IMG/VR virus record: IMGVR_UViG_3300031578_000155
Span: 1 to 37,877 of that record
Direction: 5' to 3' (one strand)
Source: a virus
Length of the DNA: 37,877 nucleotides
Positions 20,426-29,662 of this stretch are shown here, piece after piece. A model generated the notes under the pieces. The model saw nothing but the letters and a program-made list of their open reading frames with translations, did no database searches and was not told the DNA's origin. Position 1 is the stretch's first letter. Each line of letters opens with the position of its first letter. Position numbers and translations under genes: made by a program.

Positions 20426-20691
20426 CCCTTTTCTACAAATTGCGTTTTCTTCTACAATTCTGCCTTTTTGCGTAGTCCTTTTCTCATTCCTAAGTCTCGG
20501 TGGTGCCTAGAGATTGATACCGCATGAGCACCTGTCATTTTCAGCGATTGGTATCAAGGGCCACCCCTGTCACGACCAAGCCAGCACGACCGAGTGGTCC
20601 CCTTATACCCCTTGCGTTGGGAGCACTGCGTGCGACGATCCCTTTATGAATACGCCCCTCCTTCGCCGCCGCCCTGTGGCCAGACCTTTCC

Positions 20692-20946
20692 TTGCCGGCC
20701 GACCTCCATACCGTGCTCGCCCAGTTCTATGCGGCACGCGTACAGGATGCTAGCGCCCTTTCCCTGACTTGGGAGGCCCTGGCGCTCGCTCTGCGCACCG
20801 TAATCAGTGATTGGACGGCCGCCTACGGCGTCCAGCCCCTCCTGGCCGAGACCCGTGCCGATCCCGCCCGCTTTACTGGACATTGCTACCTGACTGCCAA
20901 CCGGATCGACGTGGGCCTCACCGCCGGATTCGGATTTATGAGATGA
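20692..20946 (+). pseudogene. Remnant of a DUF4338 (DruA-type) transposon-associated protein
   Basis: An open stretch of 84 codons ends VQPLLAETRADPARFTGHCY, then L-T-A-N, and stops shortly after a GFGF. This resembles the L-x-E-T-x-x-x-x-x-R-F-x-G-x-x-Y-x-x-A-N core of DUF4338 proteins, found in insertion-sequence-like elements and in DruA. The family is several times longer, and neither a proper N-terminus nor the C-terminal half is present, so this is a decayed fragment. No inverted terminal repeats were found by eye. Confidence 0.55.
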
Positions 20947-21101
20947 TGCCCCAACATTATTCGTGTGCCTCGAGTTGATCATGCCCAGGCCGGCATTTAT
21001 TACCTTGCAGGCGATTTCCAGAAATAAACTGCAACCGACCTGACTGAAGCGGTTCCAGGCGCTTATTGATTTTTTTGTGAGTACATGGCAATTCATCGAA
21101 C

Positions 21102-22367
21102 TTGCAACTAAAATCTGTGCTTACACGGCTCGAACGCGCGAGAGAACTAATGCAACTGTCTCGAAATTCTAAGACCTCTGACCATTTTGGACGTTACTAC
21201 ACAGAATCCGATATCGCGAGTTTGCTCATTGAGTCCATGGCTGTGCATAGCCCCAAGCTGGCCATCGATCTCGGTGCTGGCAGCGGGGCGCTTGTTGGTG
21301 AGGCAAGTCGATATTGGGAGAACACTGAGTTCATCACAGTTGACATCGACCAGAAGGCTGAAAATTCCGCGCTCCGCGCTATCCGCGGGTCGACGTTCAC
21401 CCATCACACCGCTGACGCACTTGACAGTTCGCTCGCCGAAAAGATTGGGCTGCGTTACGGGGACGCTGATTCGGGGTTGTGTAACCCACCCTACGTGCGT
21501 CCCAAGTGGCGCAAACACTTTGGTGAAATCCTGGAAGACGCAGGCCTGAGCCACGTCATTCCAAAAATTGGCTGCATTCAAGCTGACGTACTATTCGTTG
21601 CACAAAACTTACGCTTCCTGCGCTCTGGCGGCAAACTGGGCCTAATTCTCCCGGACGGCGCGATTGCCGGCGAGAAGTATGCGAAGCTTCGCCACACCTT
21701 GGCGACTACCCATCGGATAGAACGTGTCATTGAACTGCCACGCCGCGTCTTTTGCAAAACGGATGCCAAGGCGCACATTGTCGTGCTCACAAAGCACCAA
21801 ATTGTTGATGACGACATCCAAGTACAACAGCTTAGCAGCAACGGCTTGCTATCGGAGTCAATTCATCTTAGCCCGGACCTTGCGGCTGCGCGACTAGACT
21901 ACTCCTACTTGGCTTCGCAAAGGCAGACAGGTCGTCGGTGTGCCGGCCTTACTCTTCGGAGCATCACACAACTCATCACCCGAGGCTCCTATTCGTCGTC
22001 CCAGCGGAAGGAACTTTCCTTCCCCGTCTTCCACACAACGGACTTTGTCGACGGCAGTGCCGTAGTGCCACGGCAGTTCTGGCTGACCAAGGAAGTGCAG
22101 CGCACCGCCAGTGGAGTCCTTGCACAAGCGGGCGACATTCTTCTTGCGCGGGTAGGTCGCAACCTCGAGCAGAAGGTTAATACCGTGACACAAGGAACCA
22201 TAGCCGTGTCGGACTGCATTCTGATCTTGCGCGTAGAGCCAAAGTATCAGGAAAGGGCCCTTAGCTATCTCACGAGCGCCCAGGGCCGTGTGGCGTTGCT
22301 GGCTGCATCTCACGGCGTCGGTGCGGCCTTCATCACGATGGATGCGTTACAGAGCCTTGAAATCTAG
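21102..22367 (+). CDS. Type I-like N6-adenine methyltransferase fused to a target-recognition domain
   Basis: 421 residues from TTG 21102; an in-frame stop at 21078 excludes a much longer protein, and ATG 21150 is the alternative start. Motif I is AIDLGAGSGALV (residues about 53-64), motif IV is NPPY (about 128-131). The C-terminal ~150 residues resemble one HsdS target-recognition half: GDILLARVGRNLEQKV, ISVSDCIL-like strand and YLTSAQGRVALLAASHGVGA. The protein ends LQSLEI exactly where HsdS halves usually continue with IPLPPL.EQ, so the 3' end may be cut off. It should methylate adenine at a specific site, guarding phage DNA; no restriction subunit is nearby. Its GC content is lower than that of neighbouring genes. 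Confidence 0.85.
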   Translation: MQLKSVLTRLERARELMQLSRNSKTSDHFGRYYTESDIASLLIESMAVHSPKLAIDLGAGSGALVGEASRYWENTEFITVDIDQKAENSALRAIRGSTFTHHTADALDSSLAEKIGLRYGDADSGLCNPPYVRPKWRKHFGEILEDAGLSHVIPKIGCIQADVLFVAQNLRFLRSGGKLGLILPDGAIAGEKYAKLRHTLATTHRIERVIELPRRVFCKTDAKAHIVVLTKHQIVDDDIQVQQLSSNGLLSESIHLSPDLAAARLDYSYLASQRQTGRRCAGLTLRSITQLITRGSYSSSQRKELSFPVFHTTDFVDGSAVVPRQFWLTKEVQRTASGVLAQAGDILLARVGRNLEQKVNTVTQGTIAVSDCILILRVEPKYQERALSYLTSAQGRVALLAASHGVGAAFITMDALQSLEI

Positions 22368-22444
22368 GGTCAACAAGAATATGACCGACGAGCGCCAGCG
22401 CTTGCGGCCGGTCAGGGTCTCGAGGTCCTGAGCGGTCAGGAACA

Positions 22445-23098
22445 CTAAACCTCCCTCCCGGTCAGCTCTTCCTGCGCCCGGGTCCAGGCCTGGTTGATCT
22501 CTGCCATGCGTTCGTGCGAGCCGCCCTTGTCCGGATGGGCAGAGCTGGCCGCGATGCGATACGCTTCCCGAACCTTCCCTATGTCACACGTGTTTGGCGT
22601 TCCCAGGATCTCCCGCCATGTGCGCTTCGTGTCAGGCCCCGGGAGCGCCGTGAATCCGGTAAAGGCGCGATCGAGGATCTGGCCGCCACCCCATCGTTCA
22701 ATGGAGCGCAGCGCCGCCAATGTCCCGGCGACAGCCGCGAGATTGTCCGCCACGCGATCAAAACGATCGACCGCTAAGACCTTCATGACGCCCTTTTTCG
22801 GTTGCCAATACACAGCGACTCCTGGATCTGCGGGAGTCTTTGCATCGGAGCGCGGCAGGCCGTCAAGGCGTGTTTGGAGATTGGTCGAGATCACAATATC
22901 GTCTCTCCCCACATCCAGGCGCGAGAGTTCATCCAGCACGCGTTCCAGGCCATCCGATACGGTCAAGTCCTTTTTACACATCCACGAGCCGGTGCCGGTT
23001 GATGAATACTTTCGCTCTTTATTGTGGAATCGCGCCGCCTCTCGGCTTTTCGCGCGTGGCCACCCTGCGGGCCATTGAAGTGGGAAAGCGGCGATCAT
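22445..23098 (-). CDS. Phage J-domain protein
   Basis: 217 residues from the ATG at 23098 (ATGA overlap with the upstream gene); upstream codons in frame lie inside that gene. The start MIAAFPLQWPAGWPRAKS and the middle (STNLQTRLDGLPRSDAKTPA, then DPGVAVYW) are typical of a widespread phage family. The C-terminal 45 residues form a J domain with His188-Pro189-Asp190 in SAHPDKGGSHERM between two helices. J domains stimulate DnaK/Hsp70 ATPase. In this phage the protein could recruit host DnaK, for example to the replication complex; the partner is not shown by the sequence. It is the last gene of the leftward operon. Confidence 0.8.
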   Translation of the reverse strand: MIAAFPLQWPAGWPRAKSREAARFHNKERKYSSTGTGSWMCKKDLTVSDGLERVLDELSRLDVGRDDIVISTNLQTRLDGLPRSDAKTPADPGVAVYWQPKKGVMKVLAVDRFDRVADNLAAVAGTLAALRSIERWGGGQILDRAFTGFTALPGPDTKRTWREILGTPNTCDIGKVREAYRIAASSAHPDKGGSHERMAEINQAWTRAQEELTGREV

Positions 23099-23355
23099 GG
23101 CTTGGCCTCCGGCACGAACTCGGGCACGCCGTCTAGCCATGCGTAGACATGTAGCCATTTCCGGCCGAGCGTGTAATAGATAAAGTCCGTGTACACATCG
23201 CCATCAGATGATTCCTTTGGGACAAGATATTCGCCAGTCCTCTCCGGCATCCTCTCGCTGCACGGCACCCACCGCGTTTGGGTGGACTCAAGTTGGGTTA
23301 TGCGCAGTGTCGATTTAATGGCAATGTCGCGCCACTCTGTTTCTTCGCTGGTCAT
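23095..23355 (-). CDS. DUF551-like small protein
   Basis: 86 residues from ATG 23355 (MTSEETEWRDIAIKSTLRIT), sharing a base with the upstream stop. The block RWVPCSERMPERTGEYLVPK followed by a Tyr/Trp-rich stretch resembles DUF551 (W-x-P-x-S-E-R-x-P), a small family common in phage left operons. The usual C-terminal W-M-P-L-P signature is replaced by DGVPEFVPEAKP. Function unknown. Confidence 0.6.
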   Translation of the reverse strand: MTSEETEWRDIAIKSTLRITQLESTQTRWVPCSERMPERTGEYLVPKESSDGDVYTDFIYYTLGRKWLHVYAWLDGVPEFVPEAKP

Positions 23356-23723
23356 CACTCCCCCTTCGCCTTAGCGATAGCGGCGCGGGCCGCAGTAATG
23401 GCCTCGTCGTACTCATCCTCCGAGGCAAAATGCGTTGTCACAAGAGCCTCCAGAGCCGCCAAAAGCTCCGGCGCGGATGCGATCAGGCGGGCGTTGGCTT
23501 TGTTCCATAAAAGCGCGTATTCACCAAAATCGTCTATAGCGCATGTCTCCGGCGAGTCCGGTTGGAAGTCGTTTTCTTCCAGGCGCTCATTCTCTACCTC
23601 GAATGACTTCAGCCCAATTTTGCGGGCTTGGGCTTCCGTGCACCCATACTTAGAGACGGCAGCGGCAATATAACGCGCCATCCACTTGTCTCGATTGAGA
23701 TTGATAATCTGGCGTTGGCTCAT
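23355..23723 (-). CDS. Hypothetical accessory protein (Ead/Ea22-like C-terminus)
   Basis: 122 residues from ATG 23723, which overlaps the upstream stop (ATGA). The C-terminal half contains NKANARLIASAPELLAALEA followed by an Ala/Glu helix ending AIAKAKGE, the A-R-L-I-A-x-A-P-E-L-L motif recurrent in phage left-operon proteins of the Ea22/Ead type. The N-terminus is basic and helical. No enzyme motif is visible; such proteins are usually dispensable accessories. Confidence 0.6.
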   Translation of the reverse strand: MSQRQIINLNRDKWMARYIAAAVSKYGCTEAQARKIGLKSFEVENERLEENDFQPDSPETCAIDDFGEYALLWNKANARLIASAPELLAALEALVTTHFASEDEYDEAITAARAAIAKAKGE

Positions 23724-24010
23724 TTTGCACACTCCTTATTCAGACGTGCTAGTTCGGACGCCGTAAAATACCCTTCCAGCTTAACGATACGGGCTCGCAG
23801 ACGTTCGGCCTCGGCCAGTGCCGCGTCACGCTGGGCCTCGGCGTCGGAGAGGCGAGTTTTTAGCTCCGCGTTCTCGACTTCGAGTGCGTGGGCTTCGTCG
23901 TAGTGAGTCCATGCGCCTTCTTCATCTTCGGCCATACATGTAAAGGCACCAACATAGTCGCCGATCTGATTATGTTCCAAGATCACAGGCTCAAACCGTT
24001 TCAGGCTCAT
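23720..24010 (-). CDS. Small coiled-coil protein
   Basis: 96 residues from ATG 24010 (ATGA overlap). The centre carries DEAHALEVENAELKTRLSDA, followed by an Ala/Glu/Arg coiled coil to residue ~80 and a short tail (GYFTASELARLNKECAK). The A-L-E-x-E-N-A-E-L block is shared with the adjacent gene at 24007-24222, suggesting a local duplication. Likely an oligomeric accessory protein; function unknown. Confidence 0.6.
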   Translation of the reverse strand: MSLKRFEPVILEHNQIGDYVGAFTCMAEDEEGAWTHYDEAHALEVENAELKTRLSDAEAQRDAALAEAERLRARIVKLEGYFTASELARLNKECAK

Positions 24011-24222
24011 TTGGCCTCCAATAGCTTCTGGCAACAATTAAGTAATTTTTGTTCATCAGGCGTCTTAGTCCATCCACCATCGCTTGCAACACCAACGTAC
24101 TTACTGAAAAGTTCGTTAAGAGCCGCCCTCAGCTCCGCGTTCTCCTGTTCGAGAGCGTGGGCTTCTGACGCAAGCACCACATCCCCATAGACTGTATGCG
24201 CGTATATCTTTAGTGTGCTCAT
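24007..24222 (-). CDS. Small coiled-coil protein, paralogue of neighbour
   Basis: 71 residues from ATG 24222 (ATGA overlap). SEAHALEQENAELRAALNEL in the middle mirrors the neighbouring downstream gene (EAHALEVENAELK), which points to tandem duplication followed by divergence of the tails. The C-terminal part (about 40-71) has two adjacent cysteines. No function recognised. Confidence 0.6.
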   Translation of the reverse strand: MSTLKIYAHTVYGDVVLASEAHALEQENAELRAALNELFSKYVGVASDGGWTKTPDEQKLLNCCQKLLEAK

Positions 24223-24428
24223 TCGTCCGGCCTCCCCGCTAAGCCGCAATATCCGTGGCCGTTGCCGCTCTCATAACTCGGCCGCCACGCCATGCACTGA
24301 GAGCCGATACAAAGGCACTCCTGCGCTAGTCCATACCCTGGTGCGTAGCGGTTAATAGAATCGCCGTTTTCTGTACCAGTGCGTGAAAACGGACACCACT
24401 TCTTTAGAGCTTCGGTTTCTAGCATCAT
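24219..24428 (-). CDS. Small Cys-rich phage protein
   Basis: 69 residues. Two adjacent ATGs (24428 and 24425) follow GGAGG; the second has the better spacing, the first gives the ATGA overlap. The pattern KKWCPFSRTG...CLCIGSQCMAWRP...GYCGLAG, with five cysteines and a conserved-looking CxxxxCMAWR, recurs in small phage left-operon proteins and suggests a zinc or disulfide site. Role unknown. Confidence 0.6.
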   Translation of the reverse strand: MMLETEALKKWCPFSRTGTENGDSINRYAPGYGLAQECLCIGSQCMAWRPSYESGNGHGYCGLAGRPDE

Positions 24429-24607
24429 TCCTCCAGCCGCGCCCGTGGGTCGCGGTATCCATCGAAGCATTGTTGGTCCGGTATCAAGATAGTCGGCTGC
24501 GCCTTGGGCCGCTGCTCCTTACACCGTGGGCATGGGACGCCATGCTCCGCGCGGAGGCGCTTCTTGCGCTCCCGCATGGCCCGGTAATCCTCGCCCGTGT
24601 CGCTCAT
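24425..24607 (-). CDS. Small zinc-ribbon-like protein
   Basis: 60 residues from ATG 24607 (ATGA overlap with SSB). A basic helix ([17 protein letters not shown]) precedes [12 protein letters not shown] and a third cysteine near residue 47. One CxxC pair is clear; a full four-ligand site is not. Possibly a small nucleic-acid-binding protein. It is coupled directly behind SSB. Confidence 0.55.
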
Positions 24608-25047
24608 GGATAAGACCTCACAGCCGCAAACGGAATGTCATCTTCAAAGTCGTTCGTCCCGCGCGCACCACCGGCGGTGCTTTCCGTCGCGGGCTTCTCT
24701 TGTGCGGAGCCCTCAGACTTCCCGCCCAGCAGTTCCATCGTCTCGGCCACGACTTGTGTGGAGTAGTGTTTCTGCCCATCCTTGTCATACGAGGATGTGG
24801 ACAGCTTGCCCTCGATGTAGACCGGGGTGCCTTTCTTGACGTACTGGCCGATAATCTCCGCCAGCTTCCCAAAGGCGACTATGCGATGCCACTCCGTCTT
24901 TTCGACCTTCTCGCCCGTTTGCTTGTCGGTACGCGACTCGCTGGTAGCGACCGATATGTTGGTGATCGCGGTGCCAGATGGCAGGTAGCGTGTCTCAGGG
25001 TCGCGGCCCGTGTTGCCCACGATGATGACCTTATTGATGCCGCGCAT
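24604..25047 (-). CDS. ssb: Single-stranded DNA-binding protein
   Basis: 147 residues. The N-terminal ~108 residues are a bacterial-type SSB OB fold: [20 protein letters not shown], then [14 protein letters not shown] and [16 protein letters not shown] Gly/Ser/Thr linker leads to the acidic tip DDIPF, which in bacterial SSB is the very C-terminus and binds partner proteins. Here six residues (AAVRSYP after the Phe includes the extra stretch) follow it, so the tip is not terminal. It coats ssDNA during phage replication and recombination, and lies in one operon with the nuclease and candidate annealing protein. Confidence 0.93.
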
Positions 25048-25049
25048 AG

Positions 25050-25961
25050 TTAGCTCCGGCTCGCGAGTTGACGTTCGGCATAGACGCGCACGCCCGGGAT
25101 GGAGAGCGCGGACTTAAGGGCCCCGGCCATCTTGTTCAGGGCCGACTCATCGACCTTGAGCAGCCCGAGAAGGTCCGGACGGTCGGCAATGGCTTTCACA
25201 AAGGCCGCCATATCGGTGACCTCGCCCTTGTACTTCTCGCGTCCGGACAGGCCGGCCACCTTCGGCTTTTCGCTCATCGCGATCGGCGCGGGCATCAGCT
25301 CCGCATCCAAAGCCTTCTCGCGGGCGATCTCGGCTTGCTCCTGGGCTTCCGCTTCGCGCCTGGCGTTTTCTGCTTCCCGGGCTGCGGCTTCCTCTGCGGC
25401 TCGGGCTGCGGCCTCTTCTGCGGCTTTCTGTGCGGCTTTCTTAGCCTCAGCACCCTTGGCCTGGGCGATGGCATCCGCTGCGGCCCTGGCTTCGGCTGCG
25501 GCCTTCTCGCGGGCCTCTCGTTCGATGCGCTCGGCTTCCCTGCGGGCCTCTAAAGCGGCGCGTTCAGCGGCTTCCGCTTCGGCGCGGAGCCGGGCTTGTT
25601 CGGCGCGGGCGACGGCCTCCAATCGCTCCTGCTCGGCCTTGCGCTTGCGCTCCTGTTCTTGGTCGTAGCCGATCAGGCGTTGCTTCAGGGTCGTCTCGGC
25701 CTCGGTCAAAAACTCCAGAGGGGCGCGGAAAAAATTGTTGAGCCTTTTCACGGCTTCATTAAGCGGGGCCACAAGTTCCACCCGCTGCGCTTCGATGGTT
25801 TTGTACTTGGCCTTGACCGACTTGAGGTCGTCTGCGGCGGCTTCGTACATTTCGGGGCAGTCGATCACATAAGATTGAGCCGCCCTAAGCATGGCTTGCG
25901 GGCCAGAATCGAGGCCGACCGGAACGGAAACAGAAACGGAAATATCGTTGTTAGCAGCCAT
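25050..25961 (-). CDS. Long coiled-coil protein of the recombination module
   Basis: 303 residues from ATG 25961, chosen for the GGAGAG seven bases before it. The N-terminal ~100 residues form a helical domain; residues about 105-225 are an uninterrupted Ala/Glu/Arg coiled coil (TolA-like in composition). The C-terminal ~65 residues end with [20 protein letters not shown], a conserved block of phage proteins encoded beside recombination genes. TolA annotations of this kind reflect composition only. A role as partner of the neighbouring annealing protein and nuclease is inferred from the operon. Confidence 0.65.
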
Positions 25962-26547
25962 TTTGGGCTCTCCAGTTAAAGACGTTGAGTAGTGACAGGA
26001 AAATGGACGTGTCGGCGCGATCTTTGTGCTCAATCAACTTGTAAAGGCCGGTCGGCAAAAGGTGTAAAGCGGCGCGTTTGGGGCCATGCGGCACCGCTCC
26101 CATTTCGTGGGCAGCATAGGCGTATGCGGCCGTCTGGAGCGCTACGACCGGGCCGACTTGGGCGGAGGTCTTGAAGTCGATTACCCACGTATCGCTATGG
26201 CCGACGCGGCCCGTAATCAGATCCACGGTCCCGGCATAGCTGGCCGTATGGACCCGCACCTCGCTGCCGCCGCCTTGGCTTTCGGGCCTGAACTCGGCTT
26301 TGAAGCGCGTCCAAGCGGCAAAGTACGGCGCGACCTCGGGAGCCAGGCTTGCGGGGTCCAGATCGTCCAGGAGGTCGAGCTCGATGGCCTTATGGACCGC
26401 TGTTCCGATCTGGCGCTTGCGCTCTAAGACTTCAGGCGGAATGCCCGAGAAGTCGTAGAGCGGCTTCAAGACCTGCGTCACTGAGGGAAGGATCTTCCCA
26501 TCCAGCGTGTAGGTGTGAGTCGGCTCGTCGAACTTAAGCGTTGGCAT
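25951..26547 (-). CDS. PD-(D/E)XK exonuclease, Cas4/RecB-like
   Basis: 198 residues. The RecB-nuclease motifs are complete and in order: His52 in GTAVHKAIE, Asp109 in YAGTVDLI, Asp124-x-Lys126 in WVIDFKTS and the Q-x-x-x-Y motif at Gln138-Tyr142. This family resects DNA ends, giving single strands for annealing. The gene overlaps the candidate annealing protein upstream by 14 bases and the coiled-coil protein downstream by 11. This points to a phage exonuclease/annealase pair. No four-Cys iron-sulfur signature of true Cas4 is visible. Confidence 0.85.
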   Translation of the reverse strand: MPTLKFDEPTHTYTLDGKILPSVTQVLKPLYDFSGIPPEVLERKRQIGTAVHKAIELDLLDDLDPASLAPEVAPYFAAWTRFKAEFRPESQGGGSEVRVHTASYAGTVDLITGRVGHSDTWVIDFKTSAQVGPVVALQTAAYAYAAHEMGAVPHGPKRAALHLLPTGLYKLIEHKDRADTSIFLSLLNVFNWRAQNGC

Positions 26548-27571
26548 TCGATTTCAGCCAGGCGAGGACGTCGTTGAATTGCGAGAAGGCGATCTCACCC
26601 AGCGCGACCCCGTACATTTCGGCGAAAAGATCCTCGTCCATGTCTGCGGCCTTGAGGCGTTTCCTCAAAACCGCGACCTGGCCGCCCGTCAGCAGCGGCG
26701 TCTCGGTTTGCGCTGGTGTCTCTGCGGCCTCATTCTCGCGGCCCTTCTGATCGGAGCCGGTATAGGCTACGTCGGGCTCTTGCACTATTTCCTGCGGCGC
26801 GGGTTCGGCCTTGGGGGCGTCCTCTTTGGCTTTGCGCGTCGGCATCGCTACCTCGGACGTCGTGAAGGCCTGCTCCGGCGTCGTGTCGCCTTCCTTGATT
26901 GCCGTAAACAGACCACGCAGCACTACTAGATCGTCGAGGGTAATATCGGCTACCCCGGGCCGCTTGAGCGTCGCGAGGATCTGCGCCTCGTTGACCCCGT
27001 AGACCTGGAAGGCCTTGATCGCCTCGGCGCGCCGGGTGCCTAGCGTGGTCGCGTTGCCGGCGGCCGTCTTGCGCGCCGCGTCGTACATATCGGACCAAAA
27101 AGCCTTCGGGATGCCTTTCAAGATCGCGTTCCGTAGGGCGATCGAGCAAGCCGCGTTCGCGGTCACGCCGATCATGTCGGCCGAGAAGCGCTTGTTGCTT
27201 TTGTTTGTGATGCGGCGCTGGACCTCATACGTGATCGCCACGTTGCGCTCCAAATCGTGGAATACGCCTTGGGCGGTCACAAACTCCGGGCCCTCATTGA
27301 CGACCCGCGCGCCGGCGCGACAGTTACCCCAGGCGCTCGCGATGACCTCCGCGAAGCGCGCGCTGGGGCCCTCGATGACCTTGCCATCCCGTGGCAGCGC
27401 ATAAATGCACCCTGCCGCGACATTCTCGGTCAGCGTCACCATCGCCAGGGTGTCATCCCGAAACCGTTTGACGCTGCGCGGGTACGCGTGCGCCGTGGCG
27501 ATCTGTTGGTCGATCTCGGTCTTGTTTAAGAGCGCGACCGTCGAGCCTTCTGCTACTAATGTTTCAGTCAT
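26534..27571 (-). CDS. Candidate single-strand annealing (recombinase) protein
   Basis: 345 residues. The N-terminal ~190 residues form a compact conserved-looking domain (GCIYALPRDGKVIEGPSARF, then FAEVIASAWGNCRAGARVV and ADMIGVTANAACSIALRNAI). An acidic Pro/Glu-rich linker (about 245-295) leads to a C-terminal helical domain (LLTGGQVAVLRKRLKAADMD). It does not show a RecT/Bet or Erf signature I can name. Its place directly upstream of a RecB-like nuclease, coiled-coil protein and SSB argues for an annealing or nuclease-partner role; the conserved family function is not established here. Confidence 0.55.
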   Translation of the reverse strand: MTETLVAEGSTVALLNKTEIDQQIATAHAYPRSVKRFRDDTLAMVTLTENVAAGCIYALPRDGKVIEGPSARFAEVIASAWGNCRAGARVVNEGPEFVTAQGVFHDLERNVAITYEVQRRITNKSNKRFSADMIGVTANAACSIALRNAILKGIPKAFWSDMYDAARKTAAGNATTLGTRRAEAIKAFQVYGVNEAQILATLKRPGVADITLDDLVVLRGLFTAIKEGDTTPEQAFTTSEVAMPTRKAKEDAPKAEPAPQEIVQEPDVAYTGSDQKGRENEAAETPAQTETPLLTGGQVAVLRKRLKAADMDEDLFAEMYGVALGEIAFSQFNDVLAWLKSNANA

Positions 27572-27749
27572 TATTCCCCCTGATTTTGTCGAGTTTCGCC
27601 CTTATCTCTTTGTCCACTGACTCATCGCCCTTTGGGCTGTATCGTTTGTCCAGTAGCCAGTTAGCTGGGCGCTCGGGCGCCCGCTTCGCCTTCGGAAACG
27701 GTTGGGCTCGTAGCCACGCCAGGCGCTCTACGGTTGCGTGATCGTTCAT
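27564..27749 (-). CDS. Small basic hypothetical protein
   Basis: 61 residues from ATG 27749 (ATGA overlap), ending 8 bases inside the next gene. Arg/Lys-rich with VERLAWLRAQPFPKAKRAPE and an amphipathic C-terminal helix. No recognised domain. Supported by its place in an unbroken chain of coupled genes. Confidence 0.55.
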   Translation of the reverse strand: MNDHATVERLAWLRAQPFPKAKRAPERPANWLLDKRYSPKGDESVDKEIRAKLDKIRGNND

Positions 27750-27958
27750 AGATGCCTCCGGAAAATAAGTAGGTCGTTCAAAAATTGCAGGTTTTCGCGG
27801 TGTTCAGGGTCCAAAACGGCCAGCGCGGCGCCGTGAATGATCGATTGCAGTTCGGCCCAATCCTCGGGGGTCCTGACCGCACGCCAGCGGTTCGCGATCG
27901 CCCACGAGGCCCGGCCCAGGAGGGCGTTAAGCTCGCGCGACTGGTCGAGTGGATTCAC
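27746..27958 (-). CDS. Small helical hypothetical protein
   Basis: 70 residues from ATG 27958 (ATGA overlap). Entirely helical in appearance (LDQSRELNALLGRASWAIAN, then LQSIIHGAALAVLDPEH). No cysteine or enzyme motif. Function unknown; part of the left operon. Confidence 0.55.
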   Translation of the reverse strand: MNPLDQSRELNALLGRASWAIANRWRAVRTPEDWAELQSIIHGAALAVLDPEHRENLQFLNDLLIFRRHL

Positions 27959-28305
27959 AGCGCCGCCTCTGCGTATTCAGTGCGCGCCTGCTCAAATCGG
28001 CTCATGATTTCAAAAGCGGCATCAATCTTATTTTCGCGTACGATCTCGGCGATCAAAGGCAAAAAGCGCTCATATTCCTCGCTTAAAACCTCGTCGATCG
28101 AGACGCCCTTTTTTGCTTCCTTAAGAGCTTCGTCGTAGCGGTCTAGGCTTGGGCAGCGATCGGAGTGACGGTTCCAGTTATCAATCACCTGGCAGCTCGC
28201 GCTCCCGGGACAATCGCGCGTCTCTTTCTCCCGGCGGAGGAACGGGCAGTCTCCACAGTAGCCATGCTCAAAGACCCACAAGGTCTTGTCATAAGCGTCT
28301 TTCAT
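27955..28305 (-). CDS. Cys-rich hypothetical protein
   Basis: 116 residues. The N-terminal third has CGDCPF, two more cysteines seven residues apart (CPGSASC) and another Cys near residue 51, consistent with a metal-binding or disulfide-stabilised module; the C-terminal two thirds are a charged helix bundle (LDRYDEALKEAKKGVSIDEV). The function is not recognised. It overlaps both neighbours by 4 bases. Confidence 0.6.
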   Translation of the reverse strand: MKDAYDKTLWVFEHGYCGDCPFLRREKETRDCPGSASCQVIDNWNRHSDRCPSLDRYDEALKEAKKGVSIDEVLSEEYERFLPLIAEIVRENKIDAAFEIMSRFEQARTEYAEAAL

Positions 28306-28577
28306 GCGCCGTCCTTCTTAGCCAGCGCTACAACCTCAGTGAGCCCTTCCAGGTTCGTCAAAACCTGCGCCATGACTTGCTCGCGCGGCTCGCTGCGCCG
28401 GTCTGAGAGGTGGCCCATGATTGCTTGGTGATCAAGGTCCGCTTGCATATTCGTGACCAGCCCATTGAGCCGGTCGATTTCGTCGAGGAGTTCCAGCACT
28501 TGCGGGGGAGCAAAGAGCGTTCCGGCTTTGGCTTCGGCTCGGAGCGCTTTCAGGTCAGCGCGGGAAAGGTAGGACAT
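28302..28577 (-). CDS. First gene of the leftward operon, hypothetical
   Basis: 91 residues from ATG 28577, chosen for GGAG six bases before it; an earlier in-frame ATG at 28610 would lie right at the predicted transcription start. The protein is helical (MSYLSRADLKALRAEAKAGT, then LELLDEIDRLNGLVTNMQAD). No N-antiterminator-like arginine-rich start is seen. Function unknown. It is the first gene behind PL. Confidence 0.55.
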   Translation of the reverse strand: MSYLSRADLKALRAEAKAGTLFAPPQVLELLDEIDRLNGLVTNMQADLDHQAIMGHLSDRRSEPREQVMAQVLTNLEGLTEVVALAKKDGA

Positions 28578-28617
28578 TTGTGGCTCCAGTCGGTCGATTG
28601 GCGACCTCATGGAGAGA

Positions 28618-28646
28618 ACTATACAACCTCCGTTGTGTGTTGTCAA
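28618..28646 (-). promoter_or_regulatory. PL, leftward early promoter
   Basis: On the minus strand TTGACA (28646-28641), exactly 17 bases, then TATAGT (28623-28618): a near-consensus sigma70 promoter reading into the left operon. The operator ACAACCTCCGTTGT (28623-28636, plus strand) lies within the spacer and touches the -10 box, and a second palindrome (GTTGTCAACAAC, 28639-28650) covers the -35. Repressor bound there would block polymerase. Confidence 0.88.
28623..28636. promoter_or_regulatory. OL operator, ACAAC-N4-GTTGT
   Basis: ACAACCTCCGTTGT, a 5-bp inverted repeat around a 4-bp centre, identical over all 14 bases to the operator at 29070-29083 in PR. It sits inside PL. The repeated appearance at both divergent early promoters marks it as the binding site of the CI-like repressor, Cro, or both. 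Confidence 0.82.
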
Positions 28647-28667
28647 CAACCAAAGTAGTATTTTATG

Positions 28668-28693
28668 CCAAAGAAAAGGCCCCGAAGGGCCTT
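28668..28693 (-). terminator. Terminator behind the repressor gene (possibly carried by the porin-like fragment)
   Basis: On the minus strand AAGGCCC, loop TTCG, GGGCCTT, then TTTTCTTT. It would stop leftward transcription of the repressor before it reaches PL. It lies directly after the porin-like 3' end and may have come with it. Confidence 0.75.
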
Positions 28694-28713
28694 CCTAGTT
28701 CTGCGACGGGAAG

Positions 28714-28812
28714 TTAGTAGTGATACGCTAGGCCGACCATCATGCGAATTTCGTTGATTTTGCCGCTCGCATTGGGCGTTCCCGAAGGGGCGGTATAAGA
28801 GGCTGAGTACCG
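28714..28812 (-). pseudogene. 3' end fragment of an outer-membrane beta-barrel (porin-like) gene
   Basis: In a frame different from the repressor, the minus strand reads RYSASYTAPSGTPNASGKIN, then EIRMMVGLAYHYY and a stop at 28716-28714. This looks like the last two strands of an outer-membrane barrel, with an aromatic C-terminal beta-signal. It begins close to the point (about 28800-28812) where the repressor stops resembling its family, and it is followed by a terminator. This suggests illegitimate joining with a host gene end. Identification is by eye from a short segment. Confidence 0.5.
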
Positions 28813-29009
28813 GTCGCCAACCAGTCTGGCGATACGCCAGTTACGCGGGCCATTTCAACCACAAAACGAGAGGCGCTTTGACCACTTTGTGATCTCTCAG
28901 CTTTTTGGATTGCTTGTTGGCTCGCTCCCACTAATTTTGCGAGCTGCACTTGCGTCAGATTGGCCTTTAATCGCGCCTCTTTTAGTCGCTCCCCAAACGA
29001 TTTTGCCAT
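28740..29009 (-). CDS. CI-like XRE repressor, apparently truncated
   Basis: 89 residues from ATG 29009. Residues about 4-62 are a clear XRE helix-turn-helix domain: FGERLKEARLKANLTQVQLA, LVGASQQAIQKAERSQSG and GVSPDWLATG. Full-length phage repressors continue with a linker and an S24-type self-cleavage/dimerisation domain; here the protein ends 20 residues later in an atypical basic tail (PPLRERPMRAAKSTKFA). That tail is read from DNA that in another frame looks like a porin 3' end. The protein may still bind operators but should lack cooperative binding and RecA-induced cleavage. It is transcribed leftward opposite cro. Confidence 0.8.
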   Translation of the reverse strand: MAKSFGERLKEARLKANLTQVQLAKLVGASQQAIQKAERSQSGQSASRFVVEMARVTGVSPDWLATGTQPLIPPLRERPMRAAKSTKFA

Positions 29010-29021
29010 GTTCAGGACGCT

Positions 29022-29035
29022 ACAACGTTTGTTGT
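29022..29035. promoter_or_regulatory. Operator near the repressor start
   Basis: ACAACGTTTGTTGT keeps both 5-bp half-sites with a different 4-bp centre. It lies 13 bases upstream of the repressor start and probably overlaps the repressor's own promoter, allowing autoregulation. It corresponds in position to lambda OR3. Confidence 0.75.
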
Positions 29036-29046
29036 CTATGAGGCAA

Positions 29047-29060
29047 ACAACCTGGGGTGT
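29047..29060. promoter_or_regulatory. Middle operator, imperfect
   Basis: ACAACCTGGGGTGT: one perfect half-site and one with a single mismatch (GGTGT for GTTGT). It ends at the first base of the PR -35 box. Centre-to-centre distances to its neighbours are 25 and 23 bp, about two helical turns, like the OR sites of lambda. Confidence 0.65.
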
Positions 29061-29088
29061 TGACACAATACAACCTCCGTTGTATCTT
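29060..29088 (+). promoter_or_regulatory. PR, rightward early promoter
   Basis: TTGACA (29060-29065), 17 bases, TATCTT (29083-29088). The operator at 29070-29083 fills the spacer. The cro ATG at 29096 begins 8 bases after the -10 box, so the transcript should start at or within a base or two of the start codon. Confidence 0.85.
29070..29083. promoter_or_regulatory. OR operator inside PR, ACAAC-N4-GTTGT
   Basis: ACAACCTCCGTTGT, identical to the site in PL. Placed between -35 and -10 and touching the -10, it should repress cro-cII-O-P-Q transcription when occupied. Confidence 0.82.
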
Positions 29089-29095
29089 ACAGGGC

Positions 29096-29299
29096 ATGAG
29101 TGCACTGGAAAGAGCAATTGAAATATGCGGCGGCCAGACAGGCCTAGCCCGAGCGTGTGGGGTGAAACAGGCGCATGTATGGAACTGGCTGCGGCGAGAC
29201 AAACTGCTGCCAGCTGAGCGCGCCATACAGATAGAACGCGCGACCCATGGCGCCGTCACGCGGGCCGATCTCAGACCAGACCTGTTTTCCCATGACTAA
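29096..29299 (+). CDS. Cro-like repressor (YdaS type)
   Basis: 67 residues from ATG 29096. One helix-turn-helix domain: MSALERAIEICGGQTGLARA, then CGVKQAHVWNWLRRDKLLPA, matching YdaS/Cro-type proteins encoded opposite phage repressors. It is the first gene from PR and should favour the lytic programme by binding the shared operators. No space remains for a ribosome-binding site in the predicted transcript, so translation may be leaderless. Confidence 0.82.
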   Translation: MSALERAIEICGGQTGLARACGVKQAHVWNWLRRDKLLPAERAIQIERATHGAVTRADLRPDLFSHD

Positions 29300-29353: not shown

Positions 29354-29662
29354 ATGACCATCCCATTATCCGAAACGCCTCAAGAAAGATCACGCAAGGC
29401 GTTTGCGCGGGTCTTGAGCGCGATGGGAGAGCCAGGCAGACAGGTTGCGCTGGCCGCAACGCTCGGCACGTCAGAAAGCACGATTTCTAGGCTTAAAACA
29501 GAGCGAATGGAGGACGTTTTGACGGTTCTCTATGCGTTGGGATTCAAGATTGTAGGAAGCGACAAGGTGTGCATCGAGGCGAGTGCTCTGGAGTTTATGC
29601 GATCGACGACCGCGCGGGCTTTAAACGGAGGCTGCGCCAGCTTATGGGAAGACGACGAGTGA
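29354..29662 (+). CDS. CII-like transcriptional activator
   Basis: 102 residues from ATG 29354. A helix-turn-helix lies at about 28-48 (QVALAATLGTSESTISRLKT), followed by DVLTVLYALGFKIVGSDKVC, the pattern of phage CII proteins, which activate repressor and integrase promoters in the lysogeny decision. It lies after cro and a terminator, exactly as in lambda. Its target promoters cannot be pinpointed: I saw no convincing TTGC-N6-TTGC direct repeats. Confidence 0.8.
   Translation: MTIPLSETPQERSRKAFARVLSAMGEPGRQVALAATLGTSESTISRLKTERMEDVLTVLYALGFKIVGSDKVCIEASALEFMRSTTARALNGGCASLWEDDE

Follow-up and report, generated by a model that had tools for sequence, protein, structure and literature searches.

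A truncated CI-like repressor in a lambda-like phage switch, probably the product of an internal deletion

The switch region and its closest relative

The window, by which we mean the whole stretch of DNA that was analyzed, is a 37,877-base IMG/VR virus record in which tail genes are followed by lysis, recombination, switch, replication and terminase genes and by an open reading frame that is cut at the right end. Since no head genes were found among the open reading frames scanned, the window is probably a fragment; it is best explained as part of a lambda-like phage. The switch contains a truncated CI-like repressor of 89 amino acids (29009-28740, minus strand), a Cro-like protein which a family search placed in the YdaS_toxin / P22_Cro family (29096..29299, plus strand), and a CII-like regulator (29354..29662, plus strand). 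The CII-like gene had no match in the one bacterial class searched, and a search for the host with CI against genome contigs gave distant matches only. The left operon (20644-28649), which includes exonuclease-like, SSB and DnaJ-domain genes, is apparently complete within the window, and an N6-methyltransferase-like gene (21102-22367) lies on the strand opposite to it. No match to the tyrosine or serine integrase families (PF00589 and PF00239) was found in the window.

The switch carries two promoters, PR (TTGACA-17-TATCTT; 29060..29088, plus strand) and PL (TTGACA-17-TATAGT; 28618..28646, minus strand), both of which match the sigma-70 consensus. Within the window, the palindrome TACAACNNNNGTTGT is confined to three sites (near the start of CI, at PR and at PL); 0.02 occurrences would be expected by chance. 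We list the corresponding sites as putative operators: OL, TACAACCTCCGTTGT, which overlaps PL (28622..28636), and two OR sites, TACAACGTTTGTTGT near the CI start (29021..29035) and TACAACCTCCGTTGTA overlapping PR (29069..29084). The sequence AAACAACCTGGGGTGTTGAC (29043-29063), which stands between the two OR operators, may represent a third, weaker operator. Upstream of PL, a hairpin with a U-rich tail (28666..28695, minus strand) is the probable terminator of the CI operon. A simple terminator scan of the window did not list this hairpin, which was found where an initial annotation of this DNA had placed a terminator, after the stop codon of the gene fragment described below. A match to the PL pattern in another contig (L010), an unrelated phage, was judged fortuitous and discarded.

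The sole close relative found was IMGVR_UViG_3300033990_000084 (hereafter G001). G001 has this palindrome at the three corresponding sites, the PL region is kept, the possible third operator is largely kept, and in both phages 29 nt separate the hairpin from the -35 box of PL. The G001 repressor is a 241-residue protein with a helix-turn-helix (HTH) domain followed by an S24 peptidase domain. Between the HTH sequence and PL, G001 has the S24 domain, four accessory genes that end just before the hairpin, the terminator hairpin and PL. Of this set, the window retains only the hairpin and PL; it is about 2 kb shorter than G001 in the CI-to-PL stretch, and the DNA similarity between the two picks up again at PL (28599-28660). 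The four small genes of the G001 CI operon (L007:4279-5897) encode proteins of 93, 142, 85 and 242 amino acids, one with weak similarity to DUF4352, and are candidates for lysogenic conversion genes.

The truncated repressor and the adjoining gene end

The HTH domain of the window repressor occupies CI residues 1-67 (29009-28809, minus strand; HTH_3, E value of 8.7e-11). When the 89-residue protein was aligned with the full-length repressor of G001, these residues were 74% identical over 67 residues to the N terminus of the 241-residue protein, and the two sequences then diverged. The window and G001 do not differ at residues 30 to 40 (SQQAIQKAERS), where the recognition helix should lie. At the DNA level, synonymous sites of the HTH sequence are saturated, with third positions accounting for 48/80 of the differences. 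The resemblance to full-length CI stops at about codon 67, after DWLATG, which places the join point at 28806..28812 and bears out the initial annotation, in which family resemblance was lost after GVSPDWLATG. The loss of the C-terminal domain claimed there was likewise confirmed: the S24 domain (PF00717), which is found in the G001 repressor with an E value of 4e-28, is absent from the window when all six frames are searched. In S24-type CI repressors, the S24 peptidase domain serves dimerization and self-cleavage.

The inspected phage proteins that matched the CI HTH domain were all full length (Acidovorax phage Aval, 220 amino acids; phi297, 290; Mcat20, 250). In 398 Pseudomonadota genomes, 106 of the 126 matches to the CI HTH domain lay in open frames of at least 190 amino acids, and 5/126 lay in frames of 105 amino acids or fewer. 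Two of those five stand divergent to a full-length CI and therefore look like proteins with the role of Cro. No close orthologue of 89 amino acids was found for the window CI.

The 22 residues that follow the HTH domain are an out-of-frame reading of the end of another gene. From the join point, the adjoining minus-strand frame reads RYSASYTAPSGTPNASGKINEIRMMVGLAYHY up to its own stop codon at 28716-28714, about 31 to 32 codons in all, as the initial annotation had described. We regard this stretch (28714..28806, minus strand), which ends with SGKINEIRMMVGLAYHY and the stop, as the 3' end of a lost gene. It has a GC3 of 0.64, above that of its other two frames, which weakly favors coding. The distance from the end of the fragment to the hairpin is about 15 to 20 nt, and a similar distance separates the last gene of the slot from the hairpin in G001. 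By its position, the fragment is probably the 3' end of the final accessory gene in the CI operon, fused out of frame to CI.

The initial annotation had read the fragment as the likely last strands of an outer-membrane barrel. The end of the fragment, MMVGLAYHY followed by the stop, has an alternating hydrophobic pattern and a terminal tyrosine, as in an outer-membrane beta-signal; such an end was found in 2 of the 1,017 open reading frame ends of the window and is a weak feature. No homologue of the fragment was found in plasmids, phages, PDB or Pfam, nor in 398 and 369 genomes of the Pseudomonadota and one of its classes (partly overlapping sets, more than 700 in total); weak genome matches were read as unrelated proteins or noncoding DNA, and DNA patterns of the fragment were not found in viral contigs. 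Since the query has only 32 residues and the host is not identified, the absence of a homologue says little. The gene-end character of the adjoining DNA has held up, but its identity as a porin found no match; the last accessory gene was possibly an outer-membrane protein gene.

Origin of the truncation

We consider the truncation real and best explained by an internal deletion in the phage, with a probability of about 0.7. The ancestor would have had a full-length S24-type CI followed by accessory genes, the terminator and PL, and a deletion of about 2 kb would have fused cI, at codon 67, to the interior of the final gene in the CI operon. Such an event would leave the HTH domain, the 22-residue out-of-frame tail, about 31 codons of the lost gene with its stop, the hairpin and PL. 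An internal deletion suffices without any host DNA, because the DNA to either side of the join comes from one phage switch, arranged and oriented as in the relative, and because the fragment occupies the slot position of the final accessory gene. In lambdoid prophages, the interval from the repressor to N is a recognized mosaic region that holds accessory genes (PMC7067206), and we infer that the lost gene was a phage accessory gene. Against this, in the single close relative the gene in the last position of the slot shows no relation to the fragment.

A further proposal, that selection has kept the 89-residue protein as a working short repressor, concerns function only and is compatible with an origin by deletion. 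The intact HTH frame and operators are consistent with it, as are the short CI-like proteins that occur beside related Cro genes. However, the tail is the out-of-frame end of a gene, whereas the short relatives carry longer C-terminal segments of their own; the lack of a close orthologue of this length, the scarcity of short-frame matches in the 398 genomes, and the Cro-like placement of two of them also make the proposal improbable. The short relatives, on the minus strand of L114 (3141-3659) and L121 (3541-3909), are CI-like repressors of about 170 and 120 amino acids, respectively, beside Cro-type genes related to that of the window, and the L114 operators are of the same type as the window's; the absence of S24 from both proteins was judged by length and sequence and not by family search.

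An error of metagenome assembly inside the switch, which would have fused two variants of one phage or of related phages, is unlikely. The IMG/VR contig is known from assembled sequence alone, and no second record with the same join was found. Nevertheless, each side of the join is one half of a single switch; the operator sequence is the same on both, order and orientation are those of the relative, and the spacing between hairpin and PL is unchanged.

The initial annotation had instead proposed illegitimate recombination with the host chromosome, in which the end of a host gene for an outer-membrane protein took the place of the C-terminal domain of CI. The beta-signal-like end with its terminal aromatic residue fits this proposal. 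The searches of plasmids, phages and sampled Pseudomonadota genomes, which were not exhaustive, gave no match, and the hairpin has an identical position relative to PL in a phage without this fragment. With both sides of the join belonging to one phage switch, the claim of capture from the host was not upheld, and we consider it unlikely. Integration-dependent immunity as in mycobacteriophage BPs, in which attP lies inside the repressor gene and the window would show an att junction, also involves a repressor truncated at a join (compare PMC4557955) but was rejected as very improbable, since phage DNA lies on both sides of the join, PL stands no more than about 100 bp from the CI stop, and neither integrase family was matched.

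Consequences of the proposed deletion

By analogy with lambda, the 89-residue CI, having no C-terminal domain, should lack strong dimerization, cooperativity and RecA-stimulated cleavage. It would bind the operators weakly or not at all and would fail to maintain lysogeny, and the likely outcome of the deletion is a weak or dead, noncleavable repressor in a lytic-leaning phage. The initial annotation had expected this protein to lack dimerization and SOS cleavage, which fits the absence of the S24 domain, but the stronger view that the repressor must be dead goes too far, as short CI-like repressors exist. More tentatively, and with little probability, the HTH-only protein might act as a weak, noninducible repressor, in which case the deletion would have made a second Cro-like regulator out of a CI-type repressor. 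A nonlysogenizing phage fits the window, since no tyrosine or serine integrase was found and the left operon is apparently complete; the phage may nevertheless have an integrase of a different type or one encoded beyond the contig.

The window shares with lambda/P22-type switches that use an S24 (LexA-like) repressor the divergent CI and Cro genes, CII, operators at PR and PL, replication genes to the right and recombination genes to the left, and it differs in that its CI has no C-terminal domain. As in lambdoid prophages, in which the repressor-N slot holds genes such as rexAB and bstA (PMC7067206), there is a slot between CI and PL, but only the end of one gene is retained there. The repressor of BPs is also shortened at its C terminus (PMC4557955), but the window shows no att junction and no integrase of the two families searched, and its truncation plays no part in an integration switch. 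Mycobacteriophage D29, a phage of temperate type, is lytic through a deletion that reaches into its repressor gene (PMC6550527); in D29 the 5' end of the gene is missing, whereas the window keeps the HTH sequence and the operators and has lost the 3' part. Deletions that destroy the repressor are thus already known, and the window would be a further instance.

The internal deletion proposed here would illustrate, in nature, how one deletion in the variable slot from CI to PL may make a temperate phage lytic-leaning while its operators are kept. It also indicates that host DNA need not have been captured where a truncated repressor adjoins a gene end of foreign appearance.
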